From Struthio camelus (taxonomy: Eukaryota; Chordata; Aves; Struthioniformes; Struthionidae), in NCBI RefSeq assembly GCF_040807025.1, contig NC_090943.1, positions 121,161,900 to 121,225,899 on the forward strand: 64,000 nucleotides of DNA, in the 5' to 3' direction. The position numbers were made by a program, and so were the translations under genes. Positions within the stretch are counted from its first letter, which is position 1. Each line of letters starts with the position of its first letter. Below the pieces are notes generated by a model. The model did no database searches. It was not told the DNA's origin and saw only the letters and a list, made by a program, of their open reading frames with translations. Below, one piece after another: positions 6,179-64,000 of the stretch.

Positions 6179-9100
6179 GTGGGCGGTGGTGGCGGCTGGT
6201 CGGTCGTGCGTGCGCTCCTCCTGGGGGGGGGGACCGGCGGGGCTGCGGGCGGGACGGAGGAAAGCGGCTGCTGAGCTCGGCCGCTCCCGCGGCTCTTTGA
6301 CCGCTGTCTGTCCTGCGCTCCCTTCCCGTTGCCTCTGCCCCGGGTTCCCTGATGGAGGTGCGGGGAGAGGGAGCGACCGGCGGCTCCGGGCCACCCTCTT
6401 TGGGCCGCGCCTGGTTTTGTAGGCTTGGGTGACGGCTTGGGTCGTGGCCTGAGCCTAAGCCTTACCCAGGGCTCTGTTGCCTTCCCGAGAAGAGAGGATC
6501 GGCGCTGTCAGCAGAATTCAAGATGTGAGCAGATCATGGATCTTTACCGTGCCATAAAGATGTGTTCTGTTTTGATACGGTTTTTTCCCCTCTCCTTATA
6601 ATGCCATGGTTTGATTTTACTCTTTTTTTTTTTTTTTTTTTTCTGCTGCTGTTGAGCGTTAGGCTTGCGGTTCTGCTTGTGTGGAGCTGCTCCAACCTGG
6701 GGTCTTGCCGCTGGATGGTAGCGGTTTGTCAGAACCTGTTAACAAGGGAAGCTGGATTTTTTTCCCCCATATATAAAAATGGCATTTATTGTGTTATCTG
6801 CCGTGTTTGTCACTTTTAGTGTCATGAGGTCTTTCTGGGATTATTCAGTCAGCCCTTTTTCTTTCTATTCTGAATGCCCTAATGTTATTGGCAGACTTTG
6901 CCCTTTTGTTACTAGCTTGTTTTCTTAGATTTTACAACTCGTGAAGTTCAGTATATTCATAAATGTCAAATTAGTATCTGTAGCTTTACTTGTGGCTGGC
7001 ACCTGAATGGATACTTTGTTTTACTTTTTTTTCTTTTTAAGACATAATTCTTTTAAGCTTGTTTCTCCTTAATATCCCAATGGACTTCTGAACAATTGGC
7101 TGAGTACAGCTAAAATGTCCACAGTTTATCCTAATGTTCATTTAGATGTGAATACTTTCAGCTGTCTATTTCCTGTAACCATTCTGTAACCTAAGCATTC
7201 GCAGAATTGAAATATTCAAGCATGCATGGTATGGATAAAACCAATGTCATATTGGGGGGGGGGAGATATTTCTGGGGTACATTTCTTGCTGGAGGGGGGA
7301 GATATTTCTGGGGTACATTTCTTGCTGGGGGGGGGAGATATTTCTGGGGTACATTTCTTGCTGTTGCTCTCTATTCTGAATCAGTAGTGTTCTTTCTCTT
7401 CATCAGCTATAATCCTTTACTTATATTGTTGAGGAACAGAATGTGGAATGGTAACTTAAATACAGCGTCTCCAGACAAACACATTTAAGTGTGGATGAGA
7501 TAAAGCTACACAGAAACTGAATGTTAAGAGCTCATTTAAAAGAAACATTTTTCAGTTGTAAATATCAATTTCCCTTTTTTTTCTTGCTGCTTAGAATTCT
7601 TTTTAATTTTCCGTATGTCTCCAAATCATTTGTAGTCAGCGTTTCAATGACTGTTTCCCACACAAACAGCCTTCTGAGAGATCTGTCCTTCCTAGCTTCC
7701 AATTTATTGCTTATGGTTCATTCCTCGCTCACTGGCCAAATAGCTAACTTAAAATGAAGTTTAAGACAGCATTACCTTCGTTATTCTATCTACAATATGA
7801 GAAACACTTAAATTCTAGTGAGGCTATGGACTTGCTTGCAGTACATAGCCTTGAAGCCTGTGCTCCTGCATGAGCATACTGCACCGGCAGCATGGCTAAT
7901 ACTACAAAATAATATATCTATTATTCTGAGAGCTGATCTGTGCGTCTGGTGCTTCTACAAGCATAATTATGACAGTAAGGTGCCTGTGTGACTTTTTTTT
8001 TTTTTTTCCCTCAGACAGTTTGTAGAACCATGACTTTTTTTTTAATGTTAACTTATTCCAGTTCAACAAGTGGTATTGCTCTAACAGGTTTTATACAAAG
8101 GTATATGCAGTTGTACTAAGGTTATAAGTGTAAGCCAGCTAAAACCTCTTCAGCAGAGACAAAACTGCACATTACTATTAAACTATTCCTGTCTAATAAC
8201 ATGTTCTGACAAGATCAAGCATCTGGGTCAGTGAGTTGTTTCCTTTCCCACTCACCTGGCTGTTTTCCCTTTTATTTTAAACAGTGCCCTGATGTCTCAG
8301 ATATTTTTACTAATACCTGACTTGAAGAAGATATGAATATACCAAAAAAACCCTAAGCTTATACAGTTTTTTTTACTGTTTTAACTTGCCCGGTAATTCA
8401 GAATATGCCTACCAGGCTTTTCCAGTGCTGTTTAACATGATTATAAATATGGTAGACATTTGCCTACAGGATTCTCCAGGACAGAACAATTCTGTTAAGA
8501 ATCTGCTTATAATAGGGGATGTAAAAAGTGGATGTATTTGCTAACTGGTTTAAAGGATATCTTTAAAATTCTACCCGTTAACATGAAAACATCTCAAAAC
8601 TTAAGTTCTGATGTGAAAAAAGGCAAAGTATGCTATAAAGTTTTTCCCTTTTGTGGGAAATGTTAGGTTACGTCCTGCTTAGATGAGCTCCAAGTAAACT
8701 TGGAGCTCCGGAGGAAAGAATTGAATTCAGTGATTCTCTGTGAATTCACAGATCTATGTAAGAGTAAAAACTGCGTCTAGCATTTAAAAAAAAAAAAAAA
8801 AAGTATGGTTTATGAAGGGGAAAAAAAGCATGTTAAGGTTATGATTTTGAGTAACCTACAAATGTGTTGTAAATGGTTTTTGTAGGTTTTTGCTGTTCGA
8901 TCTGGTGGAGCTACAGGAGTTGTTGTTAAAGGTTTGGAGGATAAAAATCCCATCTCATTCAGGTAAGGCACCTTCATCTTTGTTACGTTAGGATAGAATT
9001 CCGTAATTTTAAAATTACGTGGTACTGAGTCCTGATATACTGTGATTCAGGCATAAAACTTATAAATAGTTGTGATCGTCTTTTGACTTTGTTCTTAAAC

Positions 9101-18100: not shown

Positions 18101-21100
18101 ACATAGAATGCTTCCTGAAGACTCACTTTATGTACCAAGAATGGAGAAAATAAGTAGCTGTTAGTCTAACCCCTTAAGGCTCCTACTAATACTGTTCATG
18201 CATATGTACATCTTTAAGAGGCTTTATGGCTTGTGTAGTAGTTAAGAGGGAATCCAAGGGGGTTGTAAGAAAACCCTACTGCACTATACTGGAGACTTGT
18301 ACTTGTTTGGTGCACATCCACTAATTCCACACACAAGATGTGCATGAGAATATATGACTGAAGACCCTATAAGAAAAGGGCTGTGATAGTAAATGAAAGT
18401 AGTACCACCAAGCTCTGCTTCAGTCTAGTCCATTAACATGAATTCAGTGGTTAATAGTTTAGAAACAATACTGAAATGGGTTTTAAAGCTTTAACTTCTA
18501 GATTCTTCTTCTTGGATTGTCTTTCAGCCTGACATTATCATCAGTGCAAGTGAAGGTGAGTGCTAAGCTATTTGGGAGCCTGCTGTACTCCAGTGTGAGG
18601 TACAAGCTTCTTGTACACTAAAGGTATAAAACAGCTTGAAACAGTGACTCAGCAGGTGTACCCAGCAACATGAATGGGCCTGGCAGTGATGTCAGAGTTT
18701 GACAATATCCTTGCAATGTTTGAAGATGATAATGCAGTTCTAAAGCATAGAGTATAGTCTCTATTTATTCTTATAAGAAGTGAAGAGTCTGGTTATGTAG
18801 ACCATACTATTCAAGTCAATTCACTTGGTGTTTTATTCTTTCAAATCAGGTTACCTCTGGAATCTTCAGGTGAAACTTGAGCCTGTAGTTAACCTCTTGC
18901 CAGATAAAGGAAGACTAATGGAGTTCCTTCTCCAGAGGAAAGAATGCAAAATGGTTATCCTGTCTGTATGCTCTCAAAGTAAGTGTGTGTGTGCGCATAG
19001 TTTTTTTGGTTTTAAGTGCTTTACTGGTACCCCGTGGGAGTGAAGTAGTGCTTATTCTGTCAGTACTTGTACCAGTTAGCTGGACTGCCCCTGTTCACAT
19101 TCAGGATGATTTCTGAAGCTAGCTTTGTCTTGTAGCAGAAGCATAGAATACTCTGAAACATTGTTCTAAAAGGAATTCTTAACAGCATGAAAGAGTCCAG
19201 CTCCCCAGCTGCCCTCACTCCTTTTAATTAAAAATATATCTGCTGTTTCTTTTAAAGCTCAGAGTAGAGATCACCTTCCAAAAAACAAACTTCAAACCTA
19301 CAGGTTGTTTTTTCTCTAGGATTTAACGCATAGTTCTTTTTCTTTTTCAGTGCTCAGTGAGCCAGAAAGGCGATCGCTGTCTGTGATTGCAACTGTTTTT
19401 GACAAACTGAATCATGAATATAAGAAGTACTTGGAAGCTGAGCAAAGCTATACTATGGTAAACCCTGTTAACTACAGCAGCTTACAAAGTTAGGGTAACA
19501 GCATGCAAGTTTCAGGTTGCATCACAGTAGAAGTAAAATAGCTGCTCCTTTCTACCTTGGAAAGTCAGATTTACCACAAGATTAATCAATCCCTGGGCTG
19601 CTTCAGACTCCCCTCTGCCAGGTACAGTAGGTCCCCCCATTTGCAATGACAGTTCTGTTCCATAGTCTGCTGTGGCAGAGACTGCATAGCTTCTCTCCAG
19701 TGTGAGAAGTAGTATAACTCTAGTGCTGGAGAATGAAGCAAGGTAGAAGTTCAAAAAGCAACTCATACAATCTACAACTGTCAAATTCCAGACCAGTGAC
19801 AATGTGGCATAGTCTTTCACTGCACAACAGATGCAGGACTGATAAATGACAGAATTAGTGCTGGAACATGCTAGCTTAGCTAACTAACTGTAGTAGTAGA
19901 GCTATATACTGTGTTGATGTAGGCTTTCACATTTCAGTAAGTTTGCTTAGCTGCTGGCTTTGAGGCATAAGTGTTAACTATATTTATTAACTTTCAAAGT
20001 CAGTCTACAGAGTCCACACTGAGGAAAGTGCATCCAGTATACATGATAACAGATGTGGAGTTGCTTAGTAACAAGCAGGTTTATAACCACATTCCCAGTG
20101 TAGAATAGTACAAAGCTAGCCTCTGTCTAAAATGAGTGGCACAGGTTTTAATGAAGTCTCAACATAAGGTGTTCTTTTAGTAATGCTTTCTTTCTGTAGG
20201 TGGTTGAAGCAGGCCAGAGTAGGAGTAATCCACTCCTGAAACGCCCAGTTCGCACTCAAGCTGTTATTGACCAATCTGACATGTACACCCATGTTTTATC
20301 TGTATTTACTGAGAAGAAGGTAAGTTAACTCAAAGTGCTGGCTAAGTAGTAGTTTTAGCAGCAGCTTTAAGTTGATCATTTGGCATAGCCTGCAGGAAGC
20401 ATCATTCCTGTCAGGATTGTGACCTCAGTTACCATCCTTTGGGATGGACTTGTCATTCTCAGGGGAAGCTCTGCAAGTTCCATCTAACACTTCTTTTCTT
20501 GTCCAGGAAGCACCTCATAAGTTCACTATAGCAGTCTTGATGGAATACATCCGCTCTCTTAACCAATTCCAGATTGCTGTTCAGGTAAAGCACTTCTACA
20601 TGTGTGAAGTATCAAGTGTATCACATCACTTGATGAAGTTAGATGGAATCTCAGACCAGTCTTGTTCAGGAAGTAATAGCTTAGACCTAATACTACAACT
20701 TTAGAACCAACAGAACTTGATGCTGGGAAACCCCAAACCTTTGCATACATAATACAAAATAGTTTAAATTGTCTTTACTTCAGGAGGCAAGGTTATTCAA
20801 GAAATAGCATTTAAGTCATATGCAATACTGCCTTCTAGATCTAAAGAGATCTGATATTGAAACATGCCTTTGATCTTCCTACATTCACAGCACTACTTAT
20901 ATGAGCTGGTCATCAAAACCCTTGTTCAACACAACTTGTTCTACATGCTCCATCAGTTTCTGCAGTACCATGTGCTCAGCGACTCCAAGCCTTTGGTACG
21001 TAAGATGAGCCACTTCATTAAACTGTTGATGGAGGTGGAAAGTCTTGAGACTTTTAAGGTTATTTCTGCTTTTGCCCTAGGCTTGTCTATTACTGTCCCT

Positions 21101-22343
21101 GGAAAGCATTTACCCTCCTGCACATCAGCTCTCTCTGGACATGTTAAAAGTAAGCATTTCAGACTGTAGTAACTGTCACATGTAAGCTAGACTTAAAACA
21201 GCTTACCTAATCATCCCTGAAGTGACTACCTAGCATCTAAATTATTAGCAGCATTGCCTTACAGCTGTGATTAATTTCAGAGGCTTTCCACTGCAAATGA
21301 TGAAATAGTGGAAGTTCTGTTGTCCAAACACCAAGTTCTGGCTGCTTTGAGATTCATCAGAGGTATTGGAGGCCATGACAGTATTTCAGCCCGCAAATTC
21401 CTTGATGCTGCAAAACAGGCAGAAGATAACATGCTTTTCTATACTATATTCAGATTCTTTGAGCAAAGAAATCAGCGGTTACGGGGAAACCCTAGTTTCA
21501 CACCAGGTAAGCAGTAAACAGAGTTAAGCCTAGACAATTCATTTTGCACAACTGAATTAAGACCTTTTACTTCTATTCCAGTGGAGGCAGTATGATGTGA
21601 AAGTAAAATGCTTGATTTTAGACTTACCTTTAAGCATAGTTTGAGTTGCTTGGCTTACCCCATAGTATACTGCACCCAGGAAAAGACCTAGTTTGAGCCA
21701 GACCCAGGAACTTGCATACTAGACTAACCTGTTTTGCCTTGCAGTTGCTGGCATTGCTTAGTTTAGCAATGCCATCAACTCCAGTTAGCTTTCAGTCAAG
21801 CTAAGAATTGGGTCAAAGAAAGCCTTTGAGTTTGTCTATTTCCACCAGCCTTCCAAAAATTCTAGGCATACTACATGCTAAGATTCCTCTCACTTAGAGA
21901 AAACCCCCCAAGTTAAGCCACTTGCACCAGAAGCTTGTTAATCAAACAGTCTGTAGGCTCAGAATTCTATTTGGTGGTCTTAAATCTGGAGGAGTGGAGA
22001 ACTCACTGATGCGAGTCTGCTGGCTAGATACAAGCACAAGACCAGACATCTGCTTTAGCATGAGACTGCTTGTCCCAGGACTGGAGATACCTCAGTATTC
22101 TACTGCTTTAAAAAGAGAAAGTCATTCAGCTCCTCTGCTCCAAGGCATTAAAGGCAAAAGCTGGTATTTGCATTTGAGAAGATTGAAACTACACCATCTT
22201 GTTTCTCAGGAACAGTTTGTTCTCTTATTTTCAATGCTAATAACTTTTGTTTTGCCCTCTTAGGTGAGCACTGTGAGGAACACGTCACCTTCTTTAAAGA
22301 AGTTTTTGGAGAACAAGCTCTCATGAAGCCTACAACATTCTGA
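5996..22343 (+). CDS. RMC1: RMC1 (C18orf8), regulator of the MON1-CCZ1 Rab7 exchange factor, complete
   Basis: RMC1 is the third subunit of the metazoan MON1-CCZ1 guanine exchange factor that activates Rab7 on late endosomes and autophagosomes; it is needed for NPC1-dependent cholesterol export. Twenty coding exons: 5996-6178, 8886-8962, 10321-10405, 10784-10840, 11891-11977, 13070-13210, 14903-15006, 15554-15643, 15744-15849, 16913-17024, 18032-18076, 18502-18555, 18850-18978, 19351-19457, 20200-20319, 20507-20584, 20891-20995, 21081-21149, 21281-21506, 22264-22343. All introns are GT-AG, phases close exactly, and the product is 684 aa (human about 657). Recognisable stretches include EKANPVNCVFFDEANKQ, GEFDGTTTIHQ and NLFYMLHQFLQYHVLSDSKP. 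The extra length is an acidic, glycine-rich N-terminus. The ATG at 5996 is in a good context (GCCGCCATGA). Confidence 0.96.
7254..7363 (+). repeat. 36-bp minisatellite, three copies, in RMC1 intron 1
   Basis: The unit is a G-run followed by AGATATTTCTGGGGTACATT and a TTCTTGCTG tail. AGATATT recurs at 7264, 7300 and 7336, exactly 36 bases apart. The only visible variation is at the G-run and its junctions, so the array is young. Because 36 is a multiple of three, it creates a spurious repeated reading frame. Confidence 0.9.
8685..8708. repeat. 24-bp near-perfect palindrome
   Basis: Arms GAGCTCCAAGT and ACTTGGAGCTC are exact reverse complements separated by AA. It lies in RMC1 intron 1, about 180 bases before exon 2. 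Confidence 0.8.
8886..19457 (+). CDS. RMC1: RMC1 exons 2-14: N-terminal beta-propeller region
   Basis: Residues 62-459. This part has short strand-like repeats typical of the WD40-like propeller of RMC1, for example VKCIKFSLGNKILAVQRTSK, ILGFCWTSSTEIVFITDQG and FALNVVDNLVVVHHQDTE. In the Rab7 exchange factor this half packs against MON1-CCZ1. Intervening introns contain only short poly(A/T) tracts (long T-runs near 12060 and 16660) and no transposon that I could recognise. The exon 9 donor (GAG|GTCTGA) is weaker than the others. Confidence 0.88.
9002..9019. repeat. 18-bp perfect palindrome
   Basis: CGTAATTTT followed at once by AAAATTACG, with no spacer, in RMC1 intron 2 just after exon 2. 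Confidence 0.8.
20200..22343 (+). CDS. RMC1: RMC1 exons 15-20: C-terminal Mic1 domain
   Basis: Residues 460-684 form the alpha-helical Mic1 (colon cancer-associated Mic1-like) domain. Visible conserved segments are VLMEYIRSLNQFQIAVQ, FYMLHQFLQYHV, LRFIRGIGGHDSISARKFLD and FYTIFRFFEQRNQRLRG. The protein ends EQALMKPTTF then TGA. Helical domains of this kind are related to those of HOPS/CORVET-type tethering proteins; that relation is family knowledge, not seen directly here. Confidence 0.9.
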
Positions 22344-22900: not shown

Positions 22901-51699
<28,799 letters not shown>

Positions 51700-53450: not shown

Positions 53451-53790
53451 AGATTCATAGGCTAATTTAGGTCGGCAGGACCAAGGTCCCAGATGGGACC
53501 TCTGGAGGTCATCCAGCCCGACTTTCTACTCAGAGCAGATACAGTTAGATCAAGGAATTGTCCAATTGGATTTTGAATAGTTTCAAAGATGGAGGTTTCA
53601 CAGCTTGTCAGGGCAAACTGTTGTGGTATTTGACCACACTCCGAGTAAACCTTTTTTTCTTGTATCTAAAGAGATTCTCCCATGTTTCAACTTGAGTCTG
53701 TTGCTGCCTGTGCTATCATGGTGCCTCGCTGAGAAGAGCGCTACTCCATCTTCTCTGTGTCCTGCCAGTCCCAGGCCGGGCAGCTGTGCA
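53451..53790 (-). mobile_element. old CR1 3' fragment, antisense
   Basis: Read on the - strand this is a degraded CR1 3' end. On the + strand it starts AGATTCATAG, then GGGACCTCTGGAGGTCATCCA, the reverse complement of the CR1 end motif seen intact at 58830-58860 and 61940-61975. The following bases keep the order of CR1 ORF2's last codons, but with many substitutions and small gaps. It is far older than the CR1 pair at 56.3-62 kb. The right boundary is approximate. Confidence 0.75.
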
Positions 53791-56296
53791 ACATGTCCTG
53801 GAGCACAGAGCTGGGTATTCTTTCGATCTTAATTGCAGCTTTCAGAGATTGAGGCTGTGGAACTAACTATATCAGTGCCCTGGCATTAAAAAGTGGACTT
53901 ATGCTGTTTCCATGAGTATTACAGAGCAGTTAAGTTAGCACCTTTAACTGTGTCATCTTAAAGTTCTCTTTCCTTTTGGGCAGGGAAGAAGTAGCCCTGA
54001 ACAGTTAACTCAGATCAATCAATGTCACAAACGCCTAACAGCTGATTGCCAAGTCTGTAGGAGAGACCATCCTCGCTGCCATCTGCTCCTGCTGAAGAGC
54101 CTGTACCAAATTTTGTCTTGTTAGGCTTCTTTTAAAATCCAAGACTATGAGTAGCTTTTAGGGATTGTCTCTTTGGAAAGCTAATGGGGGAATAGTTATG
54201 TGGGTTCTCAGCAGTGTACACAAGACTAAATGTTGCCACTTGCAAGAGGAGGCCGATATTAATTCACAGCATAGGATGCCATTTTGGTGTCCCCATCACA
54301 CCAAACAAGTCCTCTGGTTGCCCATCAGGACCAAATAAACCGTTTCCCTCACTGAACACCTCCCCTTTGGTGTAAAGGTGTCTGCCTGGGAGCTAATGTA
54401 AAATAATTCCTTGCTTTGTTTTGTTCTGCGTCTTGGACAGACATCCCTGAGCTTTGCCTTCAGAGGTGTACTGTGTTTCCATTGCTTTACCCGGTCTAGA
54501 AATGAAACTGTGTGCCACTTCCACTAGAAACTCAGGAGTCTAATGGCAATTAGACGGTGCAATTTCTAGATTACAATCTGTAAAAAGATCTACTTGCACA
54601 TACAAATTGAAACACAGTTTGTGACCACTTTGCAGGGAAGGCAATTAACATGTCCATTGCTGGTTTTTTCCATAACTTATTATGAGCCTTTATTATTTGT
54701 ATTGCGATATCACCCAGAGGACATTGCAAGAAGTGGGAGCTATGTTAAGCAACACCTTGCACAACCGTGTAGGAAAGCATGATACTCTTCTTGGAAGTCT
54801 TGCAGTCTTTGCGAAGACAAGCTTCAACAAGTGGGTTAGCAAGTTTCACCCAATTTCACACAGCTCCGCTTTTGTGTAGAGCCAATCCAAACCACTGCCA
54901 CGTGTTCCAAGAATATTTTTCCAGCTAAACCAGCATAATACTTGTCAAGCTGAGGGAGCTGACAGCAACCTGCCTGATGCTGCCAACAGTCAGTTAAATA
55001 TACATGTATCAGGTGATGCTGAATCAAATCTTTTTATCTTTTCATCATCGTATCTGCCCTAATGTGTTTGTATGGCTGCTCAACCAACCCGTTCCACTAT
55101 GTCCCTATCTAACCTTAGTAAGTCCTATAGTCACTCTTCAACATCAATATCCTTTCTGCATTTATCACTGAGGTCACTGGAATATGTTCATTTTTATTAC
55201 ATGTTCTGGATGAAGTTATTTATTCTCTACTAGTGAAAGCTTGAGACTTGAATTCAAAAGAGTCAAAGTTTGTTCCAGCTTTGTTGCAAACTTGCTGAGT
55301 GATCTAGACAGGTCCCAACCTCTTCAGTACAATTTCCTCTTCTGTAAAGTGGTACCAACTGCATGGCAACATGGGCTCTAAGATCTTCAAAAGGATGTTA
55401 ACAGTGAACTGTTGAAGGAAAACACTGTAGAAGTGCAGCTTATTATTGCAATAGAGTTTGGGGAAACACTGAACTTTGCTGTAAGCAAATACATGCAGTG
55501 TGTATTCAGGCCAGATACTATCCGTAAGCACCGCTGTGCTAACAAAATTCAAAGTTCACTCCTATTAACAGTTGTATGTTGCTCCTGGTTCCCATTAGCA
55601 TCTTTAGTTTACTGAGTCCCTTTGAGCACCACGGTGCCGCTTGATGAGTAAGTCAGGATTTGCTCTCAAGGTGGAGAATATGGGGAGGACAGTCACAGGG
55701 GAGTCTCTGTGGGCACTACCAAAAGCTGACTGGGCAGAGGAGCAGGAGGCAGGTTCATGAGCCACAACTCACCTGTTTACTCATGGACTTTGAAGACCTT
55801 TTGTCATATAACAGTCTGTCCCAGTGAATAGGGTCCGGTACAGAAGCATGGCCAAGGGAGAGCCTATAGAGACAGCTCTTGGAGGCTTCAGAAAGTGGAA
55901 TATTCCTTCAACCTCCTTCTGCTATACAGTCCATGCAAACAGACCACGAGATTCTGGTATCCATCTCCTAAGGGAATATAAGAGCTTATACCCATACACT
56001 GGACACATAATAGGCATGCATACATATATACCACACAAGAACACACATGTGCAGTGCACACAAAGGTGCAGTCTGTTTCAGGTCTCTGTTGTATGTTTTT
56101 TAACATTCAAATGATAAAGGAATAATCTCAAGCAGTCTCTTTCAATGGATAATTATTCTCCTCACTGAAAACCCACTGCTTGAAGGTTTGAATTTGTGCA
56201 GTTTCACCCTCCTGACTCTGCTTTTTCTTATGTTTTTTTTTGTGCAAATTAAGGAGCTCTCTGCTACAAGAATTCATCCTTTGTAGTTATTTACAA
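53791..56296. other. intergenic stretch without recognisable genes
   Basis: AT-rich unique-looking DNA. I see no conserved exon, RNA gene or further repeat. Short open frames here are at chance length. Confidence 0.5.
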
Positions 56297-56416
56297 CAGA
56301 GGCAGCGAACAGACGCAGCAGTTTGCGCAGCAGTTCGCGCAGAAGGGCGCCAGAAGGCAAAGAAGGCATCTCTCCATTTTGCACATTTTGCACAGTGGTG
56401 TGTCCTTCCCCGGGGC

Positions 56417-58801
56417 ATGGTCATGACACGCTGCAGAGCACATTCCCCAGTGGCTGCGGGAGGTGCTGCATTGGCTGTATCTGAGGCCTCAACCCAGACA
56501 GACCCTCAGACAGCAGATGCAGCTCTGCAGGTGTCAGGCTGCAGGGAGTGCCTGGGGCCTCTCCGTGAGGCCTGGGCTGACAGTCAGCTCTCCTGTGTGA
56601 GGTGTGCTGTGGTTGACCAGTTGCATCACCAGATAAAGGAGTTACAGGAGGAGGTTAGTAGGCTGCGTAGCATCCGAGAGGATGAGCGGGAGATTGACAG
56701 GGCGTTCTCGGAGACTCAGCTCCGGGAGTCCCCTGCCCCCACTGCAGCGGAGGTGTCAGAGGGCTCAGCACCGTGTGTAAAGGTGCATCATAACGCTGTT
56801 GAAGAGGGCTGGAAGCTGGTGATCTCTCGTAGAAGGAGAAAGGTTCTTGCTCCTCCTCAAGACTTACCCTTGAAGAACAAGTTTAGCGCCCTCCAAGCCG
56901 AGGAGGAGCTGGGCATGGCTCCAAGGGAGGCAACTGGCCTGGCAGACCCTGTGCCGTGCAGGAACCCTCGGAAGAAACGGCGAGTGATTGTTGTGGGTGA
57001 CTCCCTGCTGCAGGGGACAGAGGCACCTATCTGCCGACCTGATCTCTTGTCCAGAGATGTTTGCTGCCTGCCAGGGGCTCGAATAAGAGATGTCGTGGAA
57101 AGACTGCCAAGGCTTGTCCACGCGTCGGACTACTACCCTCTGCTGATCTTCCATGTGGGTGCTAATGACACGAAAGGCAAACTGGAAACCATCAAACGGG
57201 ACTTCAGAGCTCTGGGAATGGTGGTCAAGGGTCTGGGAGCCCAGGTGGTTTTCTCCTCAATCTTGCCTGTGAGGGGAAAGGACAGGAGGAGGAGTAGACG
57301 AGTTTTCCAAGTTAACAGCTGGCTGCGCCGCTGGTGTTGGCAACAGGGCTTTGGTTTCTATGACCATGGGACCCTGTTTGAAGATCAACAGCTGATCTCC
57401 ATCATCTCTAGGCCTCTCTCCATCATCTTTGAAAGGTCCTGGAGATCAGGAGAGGTGCCTGAGGACTGGAAGAAAGCCAATGTCACGCCAGTCTTCCAAA
57501 AGGGCAAGAAGGAGGAGCCAGGAAACTACAGGCCTGTCAGCCTCACCTCCATCCCTGGAAAGGTGATGGAACAGCTCCTCCTGGAGGTCATCTCTAAGCA
57601 TCTGGAGGACAAGAAGGTGATCAGGAGTAGTCAGCATGGATTCACCAAAGGGAAATCATGCTTGACCAATCTGATAGCCTTCTATGACAGAATGACTGGC
57701 TGGGTAGATGAGGGCAGAGCAGTGGATGTTGTCTTTCTGGACTTCAGCAAGGCTTTTGACACTGTCTCCCATCACATCCTCCTAGGTAAGCTCAGGAAGT
57801 GTGGGCTAGATGAGTGGACGGTGAGGTGGCTTGAGAACTGGCTGGATGGCCGAGCTCAGAGGGTTGTGGTGAATGGCGCAGAGTCGAGTTGGAGGCCTGT
57901 GGCTAGTGGTGTCCCCCAGGGGTCAGTCCTGGGCCCAGTCTTGTTCAATATATTCATCAATGACCTGGAGGAAGGGACAGAGTGCACCCTCAGCAAGTTT
58001 GCTGATGATACTAAACTGGGGGGAGTGGCTGACACACCAGAAGACTGTGCTGCCATTCAGAGGGACCTGGACAGGCTGGAGAGGTGGGCGGAGAGGAACC
58101 TCATGAAGTTCAAGAAAGGCAAGTGCAAGGTCCTGCACCTAGGCAGGAATAATCCCATGCACCAGTACAGGCTGGGGACTGACCTGTTGGAAAGTAGCTC
58201 TGCCGAGAAGGACCTGGGAGTGCTGGTGGACAACAAGTTAAACATGAGCCAGCAGTGTGCCCTTGTGGCCAAGAAGGCCAATGGGATCCTAGGGTGCATT
58301 AGGCAGAGTGTTGCCAGCAGGTCGAGGGAGGTGATCCTGCCCCTCTATTCAGCCCTGGTGAGGCCTCACCTGGAGTACTGTGTCCAGTTCTGGGCTCCCC
58401 AGTACAAGAGAGACATGGCACTCCTGGAGAGAGTCCAGCGGAGGGCTACCAAGATGATTAGAGGGCTGGAGCATCTCTCCTCTGAAGAAAGGCTGAGGGA
58501 GCTGGGCCTGTTCAGCCTGGAGAAGAGAAGATTGAGAGGGGATCTCATCAACGTGTACAAGTATCTGAAGGGGGAGTGTCAAGAGGATGAGGCCAGCCTC
58601 TTCTCCGTGGTGCCCAGCAACAGGACAAGAGGCAATGGGCAGAAACTGAACCACAGGAAGTTCCATCTGAACCTGAGAAAAAACTTCTTCACTGTGAGGG
58701 TGACAGAGCATTGGAACAGGTTGCCCAGAGGGGTGGTGGAGTCTCCTTCGCTGGAGATATTCAAAACCCGTCTGGATGTGATCCTGGGCAATATGCTCTA
58801 G
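56417..58801 (+). CDS. fused frame: CR1 ORF1 joined to a truncated reverse transcriptase
   Basis: One open frame of 794 codons plus stop from the first ATG. Residues ~1-326 are outer ORF1: a Cys-rich segment ([12 protein letters not shown]...CVRC), a probable coiled coil ([18 protein letters not shown]), a basic stretch, then an SGNH esterase-like domain with GDS (S196) and GAND (N250). From ~327 the frame enters the nested CR1: reverse transcriptase with [18 protein letters not shown] and FADD motifs, ending at the normal ORF2 stop. The esterase DxxH block and the RT N-terminus (including the GPDG region) are absent. The fusion arises because the insert adds 1491 bases, a multiple of three. 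It is a genomic accident unless shown to be expressed. Confidence 0.85.
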
Positions 58802-58887
58802 GTGACCCTGCTTGAGCAGGGAGGTTGGACGAGATGATCTCCAGAGGTCCCTTCCAACCTAAACGATTCTGTGTGATTCTGTGTGAT
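57397..58887 (+). mobile_element. nested 5'-truncated CR1 inside CR1 ORF1
   Basis: The left junction follows GCTGAT at 57391-57396. The insert begins within ORF2 at the segment matching about 60505 of the outer copy and runs to the CR1 3' end and tail (GATTCTGTGTGATTCTGTGTG). The outer ORF1 resumes at 58888. TGAT at 57393-57396 and again at 58884-58887 fits a 4-bp target-site duplication. Read side by side, its RT region differs from the outer copy at only about two to three dozen positions over some 1.45 kb. Same orientation as the host element. Confidence 0.88.
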
Positions 58888-58975
58888 GGGGAGAGATGGG
58901 ATCCACCTTACCAAGCGGGGCACGCGTGTCTTTGCCAACAGATTGGCCAGCCTGGTACGGAGGGCTTTAAACTAG
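58888..58975 (+). pseudogene. severed C-terminus of CR1 ORF1 (esterase DxxH block)
   Basis: Codons here read [18 protein letters not shown] and end with TAG at 58973-58975. DGIH (58895-58906) is the third esterase block, normally near residue 330 of ORF1 and carrying the catalytic histidine. It now lies 1491 bases away from the GDS and GAND blocks and has no ATG of its own. Joining positions 57396 and 58888 gives exactly 356 codons including the stop, which shows ORF1 was whole before the insertion. Confidence 0.85.
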
Positions 58976-58980
58976 GCAAG

Positions 58981-61914
58981 ATGGGGGAAGGGGAGTGGTA
59001 TAGTGGCAGGGGAGTCAGTAAAACACCGCTCAAGTCAGGATGCCTCCAGCGGGTGCATACAACCAGGGGAGACAGCATGGGACATGGCTATGGAGGATCC
59101 TCTTGCACCTCTTCTGGGAAGCCTGCGTGCTTGACTGGCTCTCTCAAATGCCTGTATACCAATGCACGCAGCATGGGGAATAAGCAGGAAGAGTTAGAGA
59201 TCTGTGTGCGGTCGCAGGGCCATGATCTCATTGCAGTGACAGAGACATGGTGGGATAGTTCACGTGACTGGGATGCTGTCATGGATGGCTATGTGCTTTT
59301 TAGGAAAGACAGGCCAGGAAGGCGAGGTGGTGGAGTTGCTCTTTATGTGAGGGAGCAACTAGAATGTATGGAGCTCTGCCTCGGGGTGGATGAAGAGCAA
59401 GTTGAGAGCCTATGGGTAAGGATTAAAGGGCAGGCTAACATGGGTGACACTGTTGTGGGGGTCTACTACAGGCCACCTGATCAGGAGGAAGTCATCGATG
59501 AGGCCTTCTACAGACAGCTGGAAGAAGCCTCACGATCACAGGCCCTGGTTCTCATGGGAGACTTCAACCACCCTGACATCTGTTGGGAAGACAGCACAGC
59601 TAGGCACAAACAGTCAAAGAGGTTCCTGCAAAGCATTGATGATAATTTCTTGACCCAGGTGGTGGAGACGCCAACGAGGAGAGGTGCAATGCTAGACCTT
59701 GTACTAACGAACAAAGAAGGTCTAGTTGGAGAGGTGAAGGTTGGGGGCAGCCTTGGCTGCAGTGACCATGAGATGGTGGAGTTCAGGATCCTGCGAGGAG
59801 GGAGCAGGGCAATGAGTAGGATTGCAACGCTGGACTTCAGGAGAGCTGACTTTGGCCTCTTCAGGGACCTACTTAGGGGAATCTCCTGGGGTAGGGCCCT
59901 AGAAGGAAGAGGGGTCCAAGAGAGCTGGTTAATATTCAAGCGTCACTTCCTCCAGGCTCAAGATCGGTGCATCCCTCTGAGGAAGAAGTTCGGCAAAGCG
60001 GGCAGGAGACCTGCATGGATGAGCAAGGAACTCCTGGCAAAACTCCAGCAGAAGAAGGAAGTGTACAGAATGTGGAAAAGGGGACAGGCCACTTGGGAGG
60101 AATACAGGGACGTTGTCAGAGCGTGCAGGGATGCGACAAGGAAGGCTAAGGCCCAGTTGGAATTAAATCTGGCAAGGGATGTCAAGGACAACAAGAAGGC
60201 CTTCTTCAAATACATCAATAGCAAAAGGAAGACTAGGGAAAACGTGGGCCCGCTGCTGAATGGGGCAGGTGCCCTGGTGACAAAGGATACAGAGAAGGCA
60301 GAGTTATTGAATGCCTTCTTTGCTTCCGTCTTCACTGCTAAGGCCAGTCCTGAGGAATTCCAGACCTTAGAGGCAAGAGAGGAAGGCTGGAGAAAGGAAG
60401 ACTCTCCCTTGGTGGAGGAGGATCAGGTTAGAGATCTTTTGTCCAAACTTGACATCCACAAATCCATGGGCCCCGATGGGATGCACCCACGAGTGCTGAG
60501 GGAGCTGGCGGATGTTATCGCTAGGCCACTCTCCATCCTCTTTGAAAGGTCCTGGAGATCAGGAGAGGTGCCTGAGGACTGGAAGAAAGCCAATGTCACG
60601 CCAGTCTTCCAAAAGGGCAAGAAGGAGGAGCCAGGAAACTACAGGCCTGTCAGCCTCACCTCCATCCCTGGAAAGGTGATGGAACAGCTCCTCCTGGAGG
60701 TCATCTCTAAGCATCTGGAGGACAAGAAGGTGATCAGGAGTAGTCAGCATGGATTCACCAAAGGGAAATCATGCTTGACCAATCTGATAGCCTTCTATGC
60801 TGGAATGACTGGCTGGGTAGATGAGGGGAGAGCAGTGGGTGTTGTCTTTCTGGACTTCAACAAGGCTTTTGACCCTGTCTCCCATCACATCCTCCTAGGT
60901 AAGCTCAGGAAGTGTGGGCTAGATGAGTGGACGGTGAGATGGCTTGAGAACTGGCTGGATGGCCGAGCTCAGAGGGTTGTGGTGAATGGCGCAGAGTCGA
61001 GTTGGAGGCCTGTGGCTAGTGGTGTCCCCCAGGGGTCAGTCCTGGGCCCAGTCTTGTTCAATGTATTCATCGATGACCTGGAGGAAGGGACAGAGTGCAC
61101 CCTCAGCAAGTTTGCTGATGATACTAAACTGGGGGGAGAGGCTGACACACCAGAAGACTGTGCTGCCATTCAGAGGGACCTGGACAGGCTGGAGAGGTGG
61201 GCGGAGAGGAACCTCATGAAGTTCAAGAAAGGCAAGTGCAAGGTCCTGCACCTAGGCAGGAATAATCCCATGCACCAGTACAGGCTGGGGACTGACCTGT
61301 TGGAAAGTAGCTCTGCCGAGAAGGACCTGGGAGTGCTGGTGGACAAGAAGTTAAGCATGAGCCAGCAGTGTGCCCTTGTGGCCAAGAAGGCCAATGGTCT
61401 CCTGGGGTGCATTAGGCAGAGTGTTGCCAGCAGGTCGAGGGAGGTGATGCTGCCCCTCTACTCAGCCCTGGGGAGGCCTCACCTGGAGTACTGTGTCCAG
61501 TTCTGGGCTCCCCAGTACAAGAGAGACATGGCACTCCTGGAGAGAGTCCAGCGGAGGGCTACCAAGATGATTAGAGGGCTGGAGCATCTCTCCTCTGAAG
61601 AAAGGCTGAGGGAGCTGGGCCTGTTCAGCCTGGAGAAGAGAAGATTGAGAGGGGATCTCATCAACGTGTACAAGTATCTGAAGGGGGAGTGTCAAGAGGA
61701 TGAGGCCAGCCTCTTCTCCGTGGTGCCCAGCAACAGGACAAGAGGCAACGGGCACAAACTGAACCACAGGAAGTTCCATCTGAACCTGAGAAAAAACTTC
61801 TTCACTGTGAGGGTGACAGAGCGTTGGAACAGGTTGCCCAGAGAGGTGGTGGAGTCTCCTTCCCTGGAGATATTCAAAAGCCGTCTGGATGTGATCCTGG
61901 GCAATATGCTCTAG
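58981..61914 (+). CDS. CR1 ORF2, endonuclease-reverse transcriptase, intact frame
   Basis: 977 codons plus stop. It nicks target DNA and reverse-transcribes CR1 RNA at the nick. An APE-type endonuclease fills roughly residues 55-275: N61 (in YTNARS), E88 (in VTETWW), GDFN at 193-196 and SDHE at 261-264. The reverse transcriptase spans roughly 480-800: [12 protein letters not shown] with D625, [10 protein letters not shown], and FADD at 711-714. No stop or frameshift was seen. Compared with the nested copy it has FDPVSHH instead of FDTVSHH, and other scattered changes. The ATG at 58981 lies five bases after the ORF1 stop; an alternative ATG is at 59077. The frame is open further upstream, into the nested copy's 3' UTR, by chance. 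Confidence 0.92.
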
Positions 61915-61974
61915 GAGACCCTGCTTGAGCAGGGAGGTTGGACTAGATGATCTCCAGAGGTCCCTTCCAACCTA

Positions 61975-62006
61975 AACGATTCTGTGATTCTGTGATTCTG
62001 TGATTT
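61975..62006 (+). repeat. CR1 3' octamer tail
   Basis: About three to four units of the octamer ATTCTGTG end the outer CR1. The nested copy at 58865-58887 has a variant ten-base unit, GATTCTGTGT, twice. CR1 reverse transcription starts from such short repeats rather than a poly(A) tail. Confidence 0.88.
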
Positions 62007-64000
62007 AGGCCATGAACAAGTCACACCACTTTCTCTTGAGAAACTGAATAGATGGAAATGCTTTATTGAATTGTGACTGTAGAAATATTTGACGTTGACT
62101 CAAAATGCAGCTCATCACAACAGAAAATTGTGGTAATAAGGCAAAAGGCCTGTGATGTCAAAGACAAGGTCAAAATAAAGTTTGCAGTGTAGACTCTTTT
62201 TCCCTTTTATAATGAGCATAATCTACTGCATACCGTAGTAAGTGTATCAGAAGGGTGTAGACATTTAACTGAAGTAGGTCAGATCAGTGTAAAGGTCAGT
62301 TTTAGCTTTAAGAATAGTAACTTAACTATCAAGATATATTTGACTAACTGAACAAAAGTACATTCTTATTCCTCTTGGTTCCTAAATTGCCTGTGTGTAA
62401 TCTTCCCTTCAGATCTAACCTAATGGACATTAATGTCAAAGGGAGTCTGTCAGTGACATCTAGATCTTTGAAACAAACCTTGTTATGTCATGCTAAATTA
62501 AGTCTTCCCGTTTTTCAACTAGGGCATTGGCCTTATTTGTTTTGTGAATACTATCTCATCTAAAGACCTGAAAAATAATAAAGGTCTAATGAATCAAATG
62601 GAATAGAACAACATCGTCTTAATGTAAATAGAAAATAGAAAACTAATTCTAGTATTCTACGAAGGGAAAGAATAGAACGTGGAGGAAGGGAAAAAGACAC
62701 TGCAGTATGCAGACAATTAGGATAATCTGAATAGTATATTCTTTTTTATTGGAATGATGATATGGAAAATGTGTTTTAGCAAAGCAACATTTCTGTTGTA
62801 GAATATTAATCTGACATTGAGTTACATAAAATTTATATAGATATTATCAAATGCATAAAGGGTAGGTCAAAGGAAACTATGGAATTCAGAAAAGTATGAA
62901 ACTAATATGAAATTTCCAAGGACCAAATGCAGAGCTGCTGTGAGAAGGCACAACTCCATTTAGTCCCATATGTGCAATACAATACTGCATTGCTGGAGAA
63001 AAGAGCCATGTGAATAATCTTTGGTTGAATTCTTAGCATACATTAACATTTAACACCACTGGCTTCCAAACAAAGACAGTATTTTATGTCTGTTCAGTGT
63101 TTATGTTAAGTGAAATACAAATGGGCTAGTTTTTGTGCTACTTCATTTTCTGTACCACAGTTCTGAAATTACTGAGACAACATGAGATTTGGCTTATTTA
63201 TGGATTTCCCAATAGTCACTATGATTGGATGAATAAGGAAGTATGAATTATTCTTGCAATTAGGCCCTGACTCTGAGACAAATAATCATTGTTTCTAATA
63301 AAGTGCATTACATATGACCTGTAGCTGCTTGATTTGGTGCACTAGTCCTCTCTAGTCTTCTAAACTAAACAAAGGTGGCTGGATCTATAGTGAGATGTTT
63401 TCACTCCAAGGAATGAATAGCATGTGCAAGGAGTGGCATTAAGTCAGGAAGTACAAGACTGCCTTTTGTATCAAAATACATCACCCTGCACGTAGCACTA
63501 CAGCACAACTACCTTAAATGAAGAGCTCCATACATCTGTGAGCTCTAAGGCTACACCACTGCCATGTCACTGATGGGATACGAGTCTTCTCTACCCGCCA
63601 CTGGCCTTCCCTTGCGCTTGTCCCCATCCTACAATGGCTCGATATCCATGAAATAAAGGAATGATGCTCTGTACTTTTCCTTGACTCATGTAACTTGTTC
63701 TTGCTTGCACATACTTTACACGCACTTGCAGCTGATAGGAAATTACCAGGCTACAGGACCAGCGTAAGTAAGTCTCAGGCAGAGGAGACGGTAGGCTGGG
63801 CGCCTGGATTTTAACATGCAGAGAAGCCAGCCTAAAAGCACTGTGCTACTGGAGCTGCTGTGTTTGTGTGAAATATATGTATATATGGCACGTTTTGAAA
63901 AAACACTTTGGCCAATTTTCCTATTCTAGTTCTATTTCATGTCATTACGTGCTACGTGCTATCCTGCTGTCTATGAAATGGATTTGGTGCCCCTTCATTT
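62007..64000. other. intergenic flank after the CR1 pair
   Basis: AT-rich DNA without a recognisable exon, RNA gene or repeat. AATAAA is present near 63651 on the + strand, and TTTATT occurs at about 62062 and 62744, so 3' UTR sequence of an unseen neighbour (in human ANKRD29 comes next) cannot be excluded. Confidence 0.4.

Follow-up and report, generated by a model that had tools for sequence, protein, structure and literature searches.

Insertion of a 5'-truncated CR1 into ORF1 of another member of its young family near NPC1 in Struthio camelus

The Locus and Its Surroundings

The window, i.e., the whole analysed stretch of 64,000 nucleotides of Struthio camelus DNA (contig NC_090943.1, positions 121,161,900 to 121,225,899), contains reading-frame matches to RMC1 (20861-21166, + strand, E 6.9e-17) and NPC1 (25922-26251, - strand, E 3e-33), with the exons of the two genes on opposite strands, and a pair of CR1 (chicken repeat 1) LINE copies on the upstream side of NPC1 (Table 1). 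Between 50 and 54 kb, about 4 kb from the CR1, lies a CpG-rich stretch that presumably corresponds to the NPC1 promoter. The window also holds the 3' end of an old, decayed CR1 with an in-frame stop (53492-53661, - strand) and a 36-bp tandem repeat (7258-7363; 2.9 copies, 98% matches), while Rfam gave no match in the window.

Both copies of the pair lie on the + strand in the same orientation. The outer copy, which is interrupted once, has kept both ORFs; the first-pass annotation had placed it at 56297-62006, where CR1 is indeed present, but the element starts at 56294 and ends at about 62002. Besides the candidate duplication ATTTA at its ends, a second 5-nt match (ACAAG) is found farther from them. 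The whole inserted stretch (57397-58887) has 1491 nt, a number divisible by three; its CR1 part begins inside ORF2 and ends in a CR1 tail, as do truncated LINE copies. The earlier claim of a young CR1 within ORF1 of a CR1 of the same family is confirmed, as the junctions, the rejoined frame and the uninterrupted relatives agree, and the insert can be described as a 5'-truncated CR1.

Table 1. Features of the nested CR1 pair (positions in the window)
Feature	Positions	Strand	Basis or remark
Candidate 5' target-site duplication ATTTA, outer CR1	56289-56293		ATTTA also at 62003-62007
5' UTR of outer CR1, upstream part missing	56294-56416	+	longer in other long copies
Outer ORF1, left part, esterase body	56417-57396	+	PDB 4c1b match; sub-threshold Pfam Lipase_GDSL_2
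Accidental open frame, ORF1 into nested RT, 794 codons + stop	56417-58801	+	
TGAT at left junction (target)	57393-57396		
Extra nucleotides at 5' junction	57397-57403	+	inside 12-bp direct repeat
Nested 5'-truncated CR1: RT region, 3' UTR, tail	57404-58883	+	RVT_1 124.7 bits
TGAT at right junction (duplication, or end of nested tail)	58884-58887		
Outer ORF1, right part, with predicted Asp-x-x-His (DGIH)	58888-58975	+	
Outer ORF2, endonuclease + reverse transcriptase, open frame including stop	58981-61914	+	
Outer 3' UTR, predicted hairpin + octamer tail	61915-62002	+	
Candidate 3' target-site duplication ATTTA, outer CR1	62003-62007		

Coding Capacity and the Effect of the Insertion

ORF2 of the outer copy combines the endonuclease (Pfam Exo_endo_phos, 54.9 bits) and the reverse transcriptase (RT) of a CR1 LINE; its start codon is uncertain, the frame being open from 58825. 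Pfam RVT_1 scores the nested RT at 124.7 bits and the outer RT at 118.5 bits; within 58981-61914 the RVT_1 match has 115.8 bits. The body of outer ORF1 matches the zebrafish ORF1 structure PDB 4c1b (E 2.4e-16) and reaches 25.7 bits with Pfam Lipase_GDSL_2, under the cut-off of 32.9. By its structure match, outer ORF1 is an esterase ORF1 of type IV, the type of vertebrate CR1 and L2.

The insertion separates this esterase body from a D-x-x-H motif (DGIH, 58895-58906). In ZfL2-1, the catalytic triad is formed by S143, D279 and H282 (PMC3905857), and by analogy the Asp and His of DGIH may serve as the catalytic pair of the outer protein, which the insertion is therefore predicted to have cost its Asp/His pair; the 28-residue right piece of ORF1 alone gave no match in a structure search. 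The nested RT frame continues the outer ORF1 frame. Because about one insertion in three falls in frame, the resulting 794-codon frame is no evidence of function; the ORF1-RT fusion is accidental, and no function is proposed for it.

Relatives in the Host Genome

A search of the host genome (1.452 Gb in 262 contigs) with the nested copy as query gave 6250 first-look candidates, 40 of which were scored; 39 of these are other than the query, all at 99%, and 35 of the 39 were fetched. These 35 are the best matches to the nested copy, so that the comparison of the two copies with them is biased against the outer copy, and outer-type relatives are under-sampled because the sample was picked by similarity to the nested one. 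The fetched copies differ from their own consensus at only 1 to 9 of 1466 sites, and across 85,739 bases of their ORF2, sites with the outer base being omitted, there are 224 substitutions, including 3 stops, and a single deleted base.

The other long copies reach at least 10 nt farther upstream than the 5' end of the outer copy. Five of them (L017, L025, L030, L041, L044) have in common a long stretch of 5' UTR, seen in their first 360 bases in element orientation (from about 180 to 270 bp upstream of the outer start). In L025, TATATAAG stands about 25 nt ahead of AGAGCGCAGC, near the starts of L012, L019 and L037; to judge from these motifs, the stretch may possibly comprise a promoter and start site. 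On contig C18 of the same genome (about 2438000-2464500; L047-L051), a 6,928-bp unit is repeated four times head-to-tail, each unit with a 2.1-kb truncated CR1, and in almost every 1-kb step the identity between the units is 0.99 to 1.0.

At the 3' end, the outer tail consists of 3.5 units of 8 nt with the octamer ATTCTRTG. The nested tail unit, ATTCTGTGTG, is extended by TG, an extension that recurs in 6 of the 35 copies and is absent from the outer one. The predicted 3' UTR hairpins are unremarkable against shuffled sequences (z -0.97 and -1.20; 32 and 28 of 200 shuffles were equally good).

Junctions and the Empty Site

The first-pass annotation described sharp junctions with TGAT repeated at both ends. 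TGAT is indeed found at 57393-57396 and at 58884-58887, with the right flank beginning at 58888; its status as a 4-bp target-site duplication is ambiguous, however, because the 3' TGAT could equally end the nested tail, which reads (ATTCTGTGTG)2 followed by AT and which TGAT fits as well. The empty site is identical under either reading. As had also been claimed, outer ORF1 closes when the insert is left out: the joined flanks (56417..58975) form 356 codons counting the stop. Moreover, the insertion site is covered by 16 of the 35 fetched copies and is uninterrupted in all 16, with the sequence CAGCTGATGGGGAGAGA in 15 and one substitution in the remaining copy (L040). The empty state is therefore observed directly, beyond the deduction from the frame. 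The host element is continuous on either side of the guest, which is the configuration of a nested transposition (TinT).

At the 5' junction, all 39 other scored host-genome matches to the insert (40 scored, the query included, of 6250 first-look candidates) start at base 57404, from which it follows that 57397-57403 is not CR1 sequence. These seven nucleotides lie in a 12-bp direct repeat (57396-57407 = 57417-57428), and random 7-nt fillers reach a junction repeat of 12 bp in a fraction of only 0.0001 of 20000 trials. In chicken cells, ZfL2-1 inserts are reported with extra nucleotides or microhomology at the 5' end (PMC4245944). Regarding target-site duplications, CR1 inserts without them according to PMC2169234, whereas PMC4245944 gives duplications of 3-5 bp for a LINE of the CR1/L2 type in chicken cells; among the 35 copies, 6 have none and 11 only 3 nt (an unshuffled count, with 3 nt being within chance).

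Divergence, Order and Age

The expectation of a few dozen differences between the copies holds: aligned over 57404-58883 (nested) and 60517-61994 (outer), they show 30 mismatches and one 2-nt gap, i.e., 1448 of 1480 alignment columns (98%) are identical. The proposed order, outer first and nested second, is certain, since the guest sits inside ORF1 of its host. The further step from near-identity to closeness in time, however, does not follow. Pairwise divergence is the sum of both ages and of the divergence between the source copies, and similarity therefore does not date the interval. The two copies are in fact unequal: the nested one differs from the consensus of the 35 at 12 of 1466 sites, 11 of them common to the outer copy and 1 private (the fourth base of the nested body), whereas the outer one has 40 differences in the nested-covered region, 11 shared with the nested copy and 29 absent from it. 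A large part of the 2% is thus apparently a difference between source lineages.

Over its whole length, the outer copy has 85 substitutions against the consensus in 4205 columns and no stop; gap columns are confined to the 5' UTR (extra bases in the copies being uncounted). Of these differences, 33 are private, while 52 recur in the nested copy or in some other copy among those fetched. CpG losses in the two directions are similar in number (10 and 13), a pattern that differs from simple decay of an old copy. In the 2732 columns that precede the RT third there are 45 differences, 30 of which are found in other fetched copies, leaving 15 private ones compared to 1 to 11 in 12 other long copies (two of which cover 2341 and 2445 columns). 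Assuming a neutral rate near 2e-9 per site per year, 0.55% would amount to about 3 million years, as an upper bound. Both insertions look recent, and closeness in time is therefore plausible, but the nested pair gives an order and no interval; the outer copy may perhaps be a few times older than the nested one.

Other routes to a date or a polarity were rejected. The ratio of transitions to transversions between the two copies (13 to 17) seemed odd, but the relatives themselves show 136 to 88 against the consensus; the nonsynonymous share (19/28) comprises too few sites to separate decay from source differences. Distant RTs give a mixed picture: L001 and L002 both side with the nested copy at NIFIND, but L002 has the N of the outer one at residue 115.

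Origin of the Nested Copy

The locus almost certainly arose through target-primed reverse transcription, which took place twice within one young CR1 family. A CR1 with both ORFs would have inserted upstream of NPC1; later, CR1 machinery would have nicked ORF1 of this outer copy beside TGAT, and copying of a second CR1 RNA would have started at the 3' tail of that RNA and reached the RT region. The end of the unfinished cDNA might then have been joined with a few extra nucleotides matching the insert's own 5' end. The outcome would be a truncated daughter of 1.48 kb in the same orientation, with the outer esterase domain split and the frame open into the nested RT. The structure, the junctions, the uninterrupted site in relatives, the order and the family are shown directly, whereas the target-primed mechanism, the self-templated filler and the recent date of both insertions are inferred. 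Points that weigh against this reading are the ambiguity of TGAT, the statement in PMC2169234 on missing duplications, the low yield of duplications among the 35 copies and the hairpins that do no better than shuffled sequences.

The least improbable alternative is sequence exchange: after the insertion, gene conversion with the outer copy might have overwritten patches of the nested one, or a recombinant RNA might have been the source of the nested copy. In either case, exchange would account for part of the 98% identity. This is unlikely, but it accommodates the unexpected finding that 11 of the 12 nested departures from the 35-copy consensus are the outer copy's base, with 3 of these variants (60706, 60999, 61227) in none of the 35 copies. 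FastTree also pairs the two copies (support 0.93), with branches of 0.0208 for the outer and 0.0008 for the nested one. Shared and unshared sites follow one another in a clustered order (9 runs, P 0.0018), yet the clustering fades when neighbouring sites are merged (P 0.017 at 2 nt, 0.16 at 10 nt, 0.42 at 15 nt). Furthermore, 8 of the 11 variants in common are also present in one or more of the remaining fetched copies, and a side lineage can therefore explain the sharing; outer-type relatives are under-sampled among the 35. Outer-type bases are found at 19 of the 85 sites in L012, about 158 kb upstream of the nested copy on the same contig, and likewise at 19 of 85 in L041, 12 of them at 58897-59733. 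A nested copy that is a mosaic, with RT patches overwritten from the host element 3.1 kb away, in a family whose copies exchange sequence widely, is an unlikely picture.

The shared variants and the tree pairing would also suit a nested copy that is the direct daughter of the outer one. Mother and daughter should, however, have mutated equally since the insertion, and the outer copy has 29 consensus differences that are absent from the nested one, which has a single private variant; the outer copy is also without at least part of its 5' UTR, and direct descent is very improbable. A DNA-level duplication of the outer 3' third, without retrotransposition, would yield the same family, orientation and 98% identity, but it is scarcely credible for a copy that stops exactly at the CR1 tail, includes nothing of the outer 3' flank, has junction features of the LINE type and carries a TG-extended tail that the outer copy lacks and 6 of 35 other copies have. 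Similarly, the many near-identical family copies (6250 first-look candidates) could mislead assemblers into fusing two CR1 loci; an artefact of this kind is highly unlikely, given the base-for-base agreement between the reading frame, the flanks and the site as relatives read through it, within a contig of 173.7 Mb.

Implications

With two reverse transcription events as the preferred reading, the pair is a clean but ordinary example of a well-known type of event. It provides a clean marker of relative date near NPC1, possibly usable as a presence/absence marker too, and shows at a single locus how a sister CR1 with both ORFs preserved is disabled by a truncated daughter. New details are the 12-bp repeat at the 5' junction, the accidental 794-codon frame and the loss of the predicted esterase Asp/His pair. 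The case also calls for caution: the age of a nested pair should be judged against a large set of genomic relatives and not from the similarity of its two members. If the nested copy were a mosaic after all, the divergence between guest and host would understate both ages, and nested pairs of one family could serve to measure conversion.

Comparison With Known Systems

Outside the host genome, no relative was found in viral_contigs, either by protein or by the 17-nt CR1 3' motif, nor by blastn among phages and plasmids. Of three matches in genome_contigs, two have 24-25% identity and the third has 54% over 39 residues. About 90 nt of CR1-like RT sequence, 72% identical to the nested copy, stand at the start of a contig that is filed as a Eubacterium MAG (JAGHJI010000019.1; L003:1-110) and are likely host DNA or a chimera.

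Nested CR1s are well documented: 1,978 are given for chicken (Kriegs et al., 2007; PMC2169234) and 6,752 to 9,100 for each of four crocodilians (Suh et al., 2014; PMC4316615). With thousands per genome, the present pair is therefore a case of a known kind. The TinT method likewise reads relative order from CR1-in-CR1 insertions; here, however, guest and host belong to one family, and cases of the same subtype were dropped as uninformative according to PMC2169234; fine variants would be needed to use the present pair in this way.

Several bird orders are reported to have large numbers of full-length and intact CR1s (Galbraith et al., 2021; PMC8665684). As in the recently active avian CR1 described there, endonuclease and RT share one frame, the 3' end is a microsatellite and copies are recent, whereas the nested unit ATTCTGTGTG exceeds the octamer in length and differs from the AAATTCYGTG decamer of CR1-W. 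The zebrafish LINE ZfL2-1 likewise combines an esterase ORF1 with short duplications and 5' extra nucleotides or microhomology (PMC3905857; PMC4245944). For the related ZfL2-2, in contrast, a large share of the extra nucleotides is traced to the flanks, while those described here match the insert's own start.
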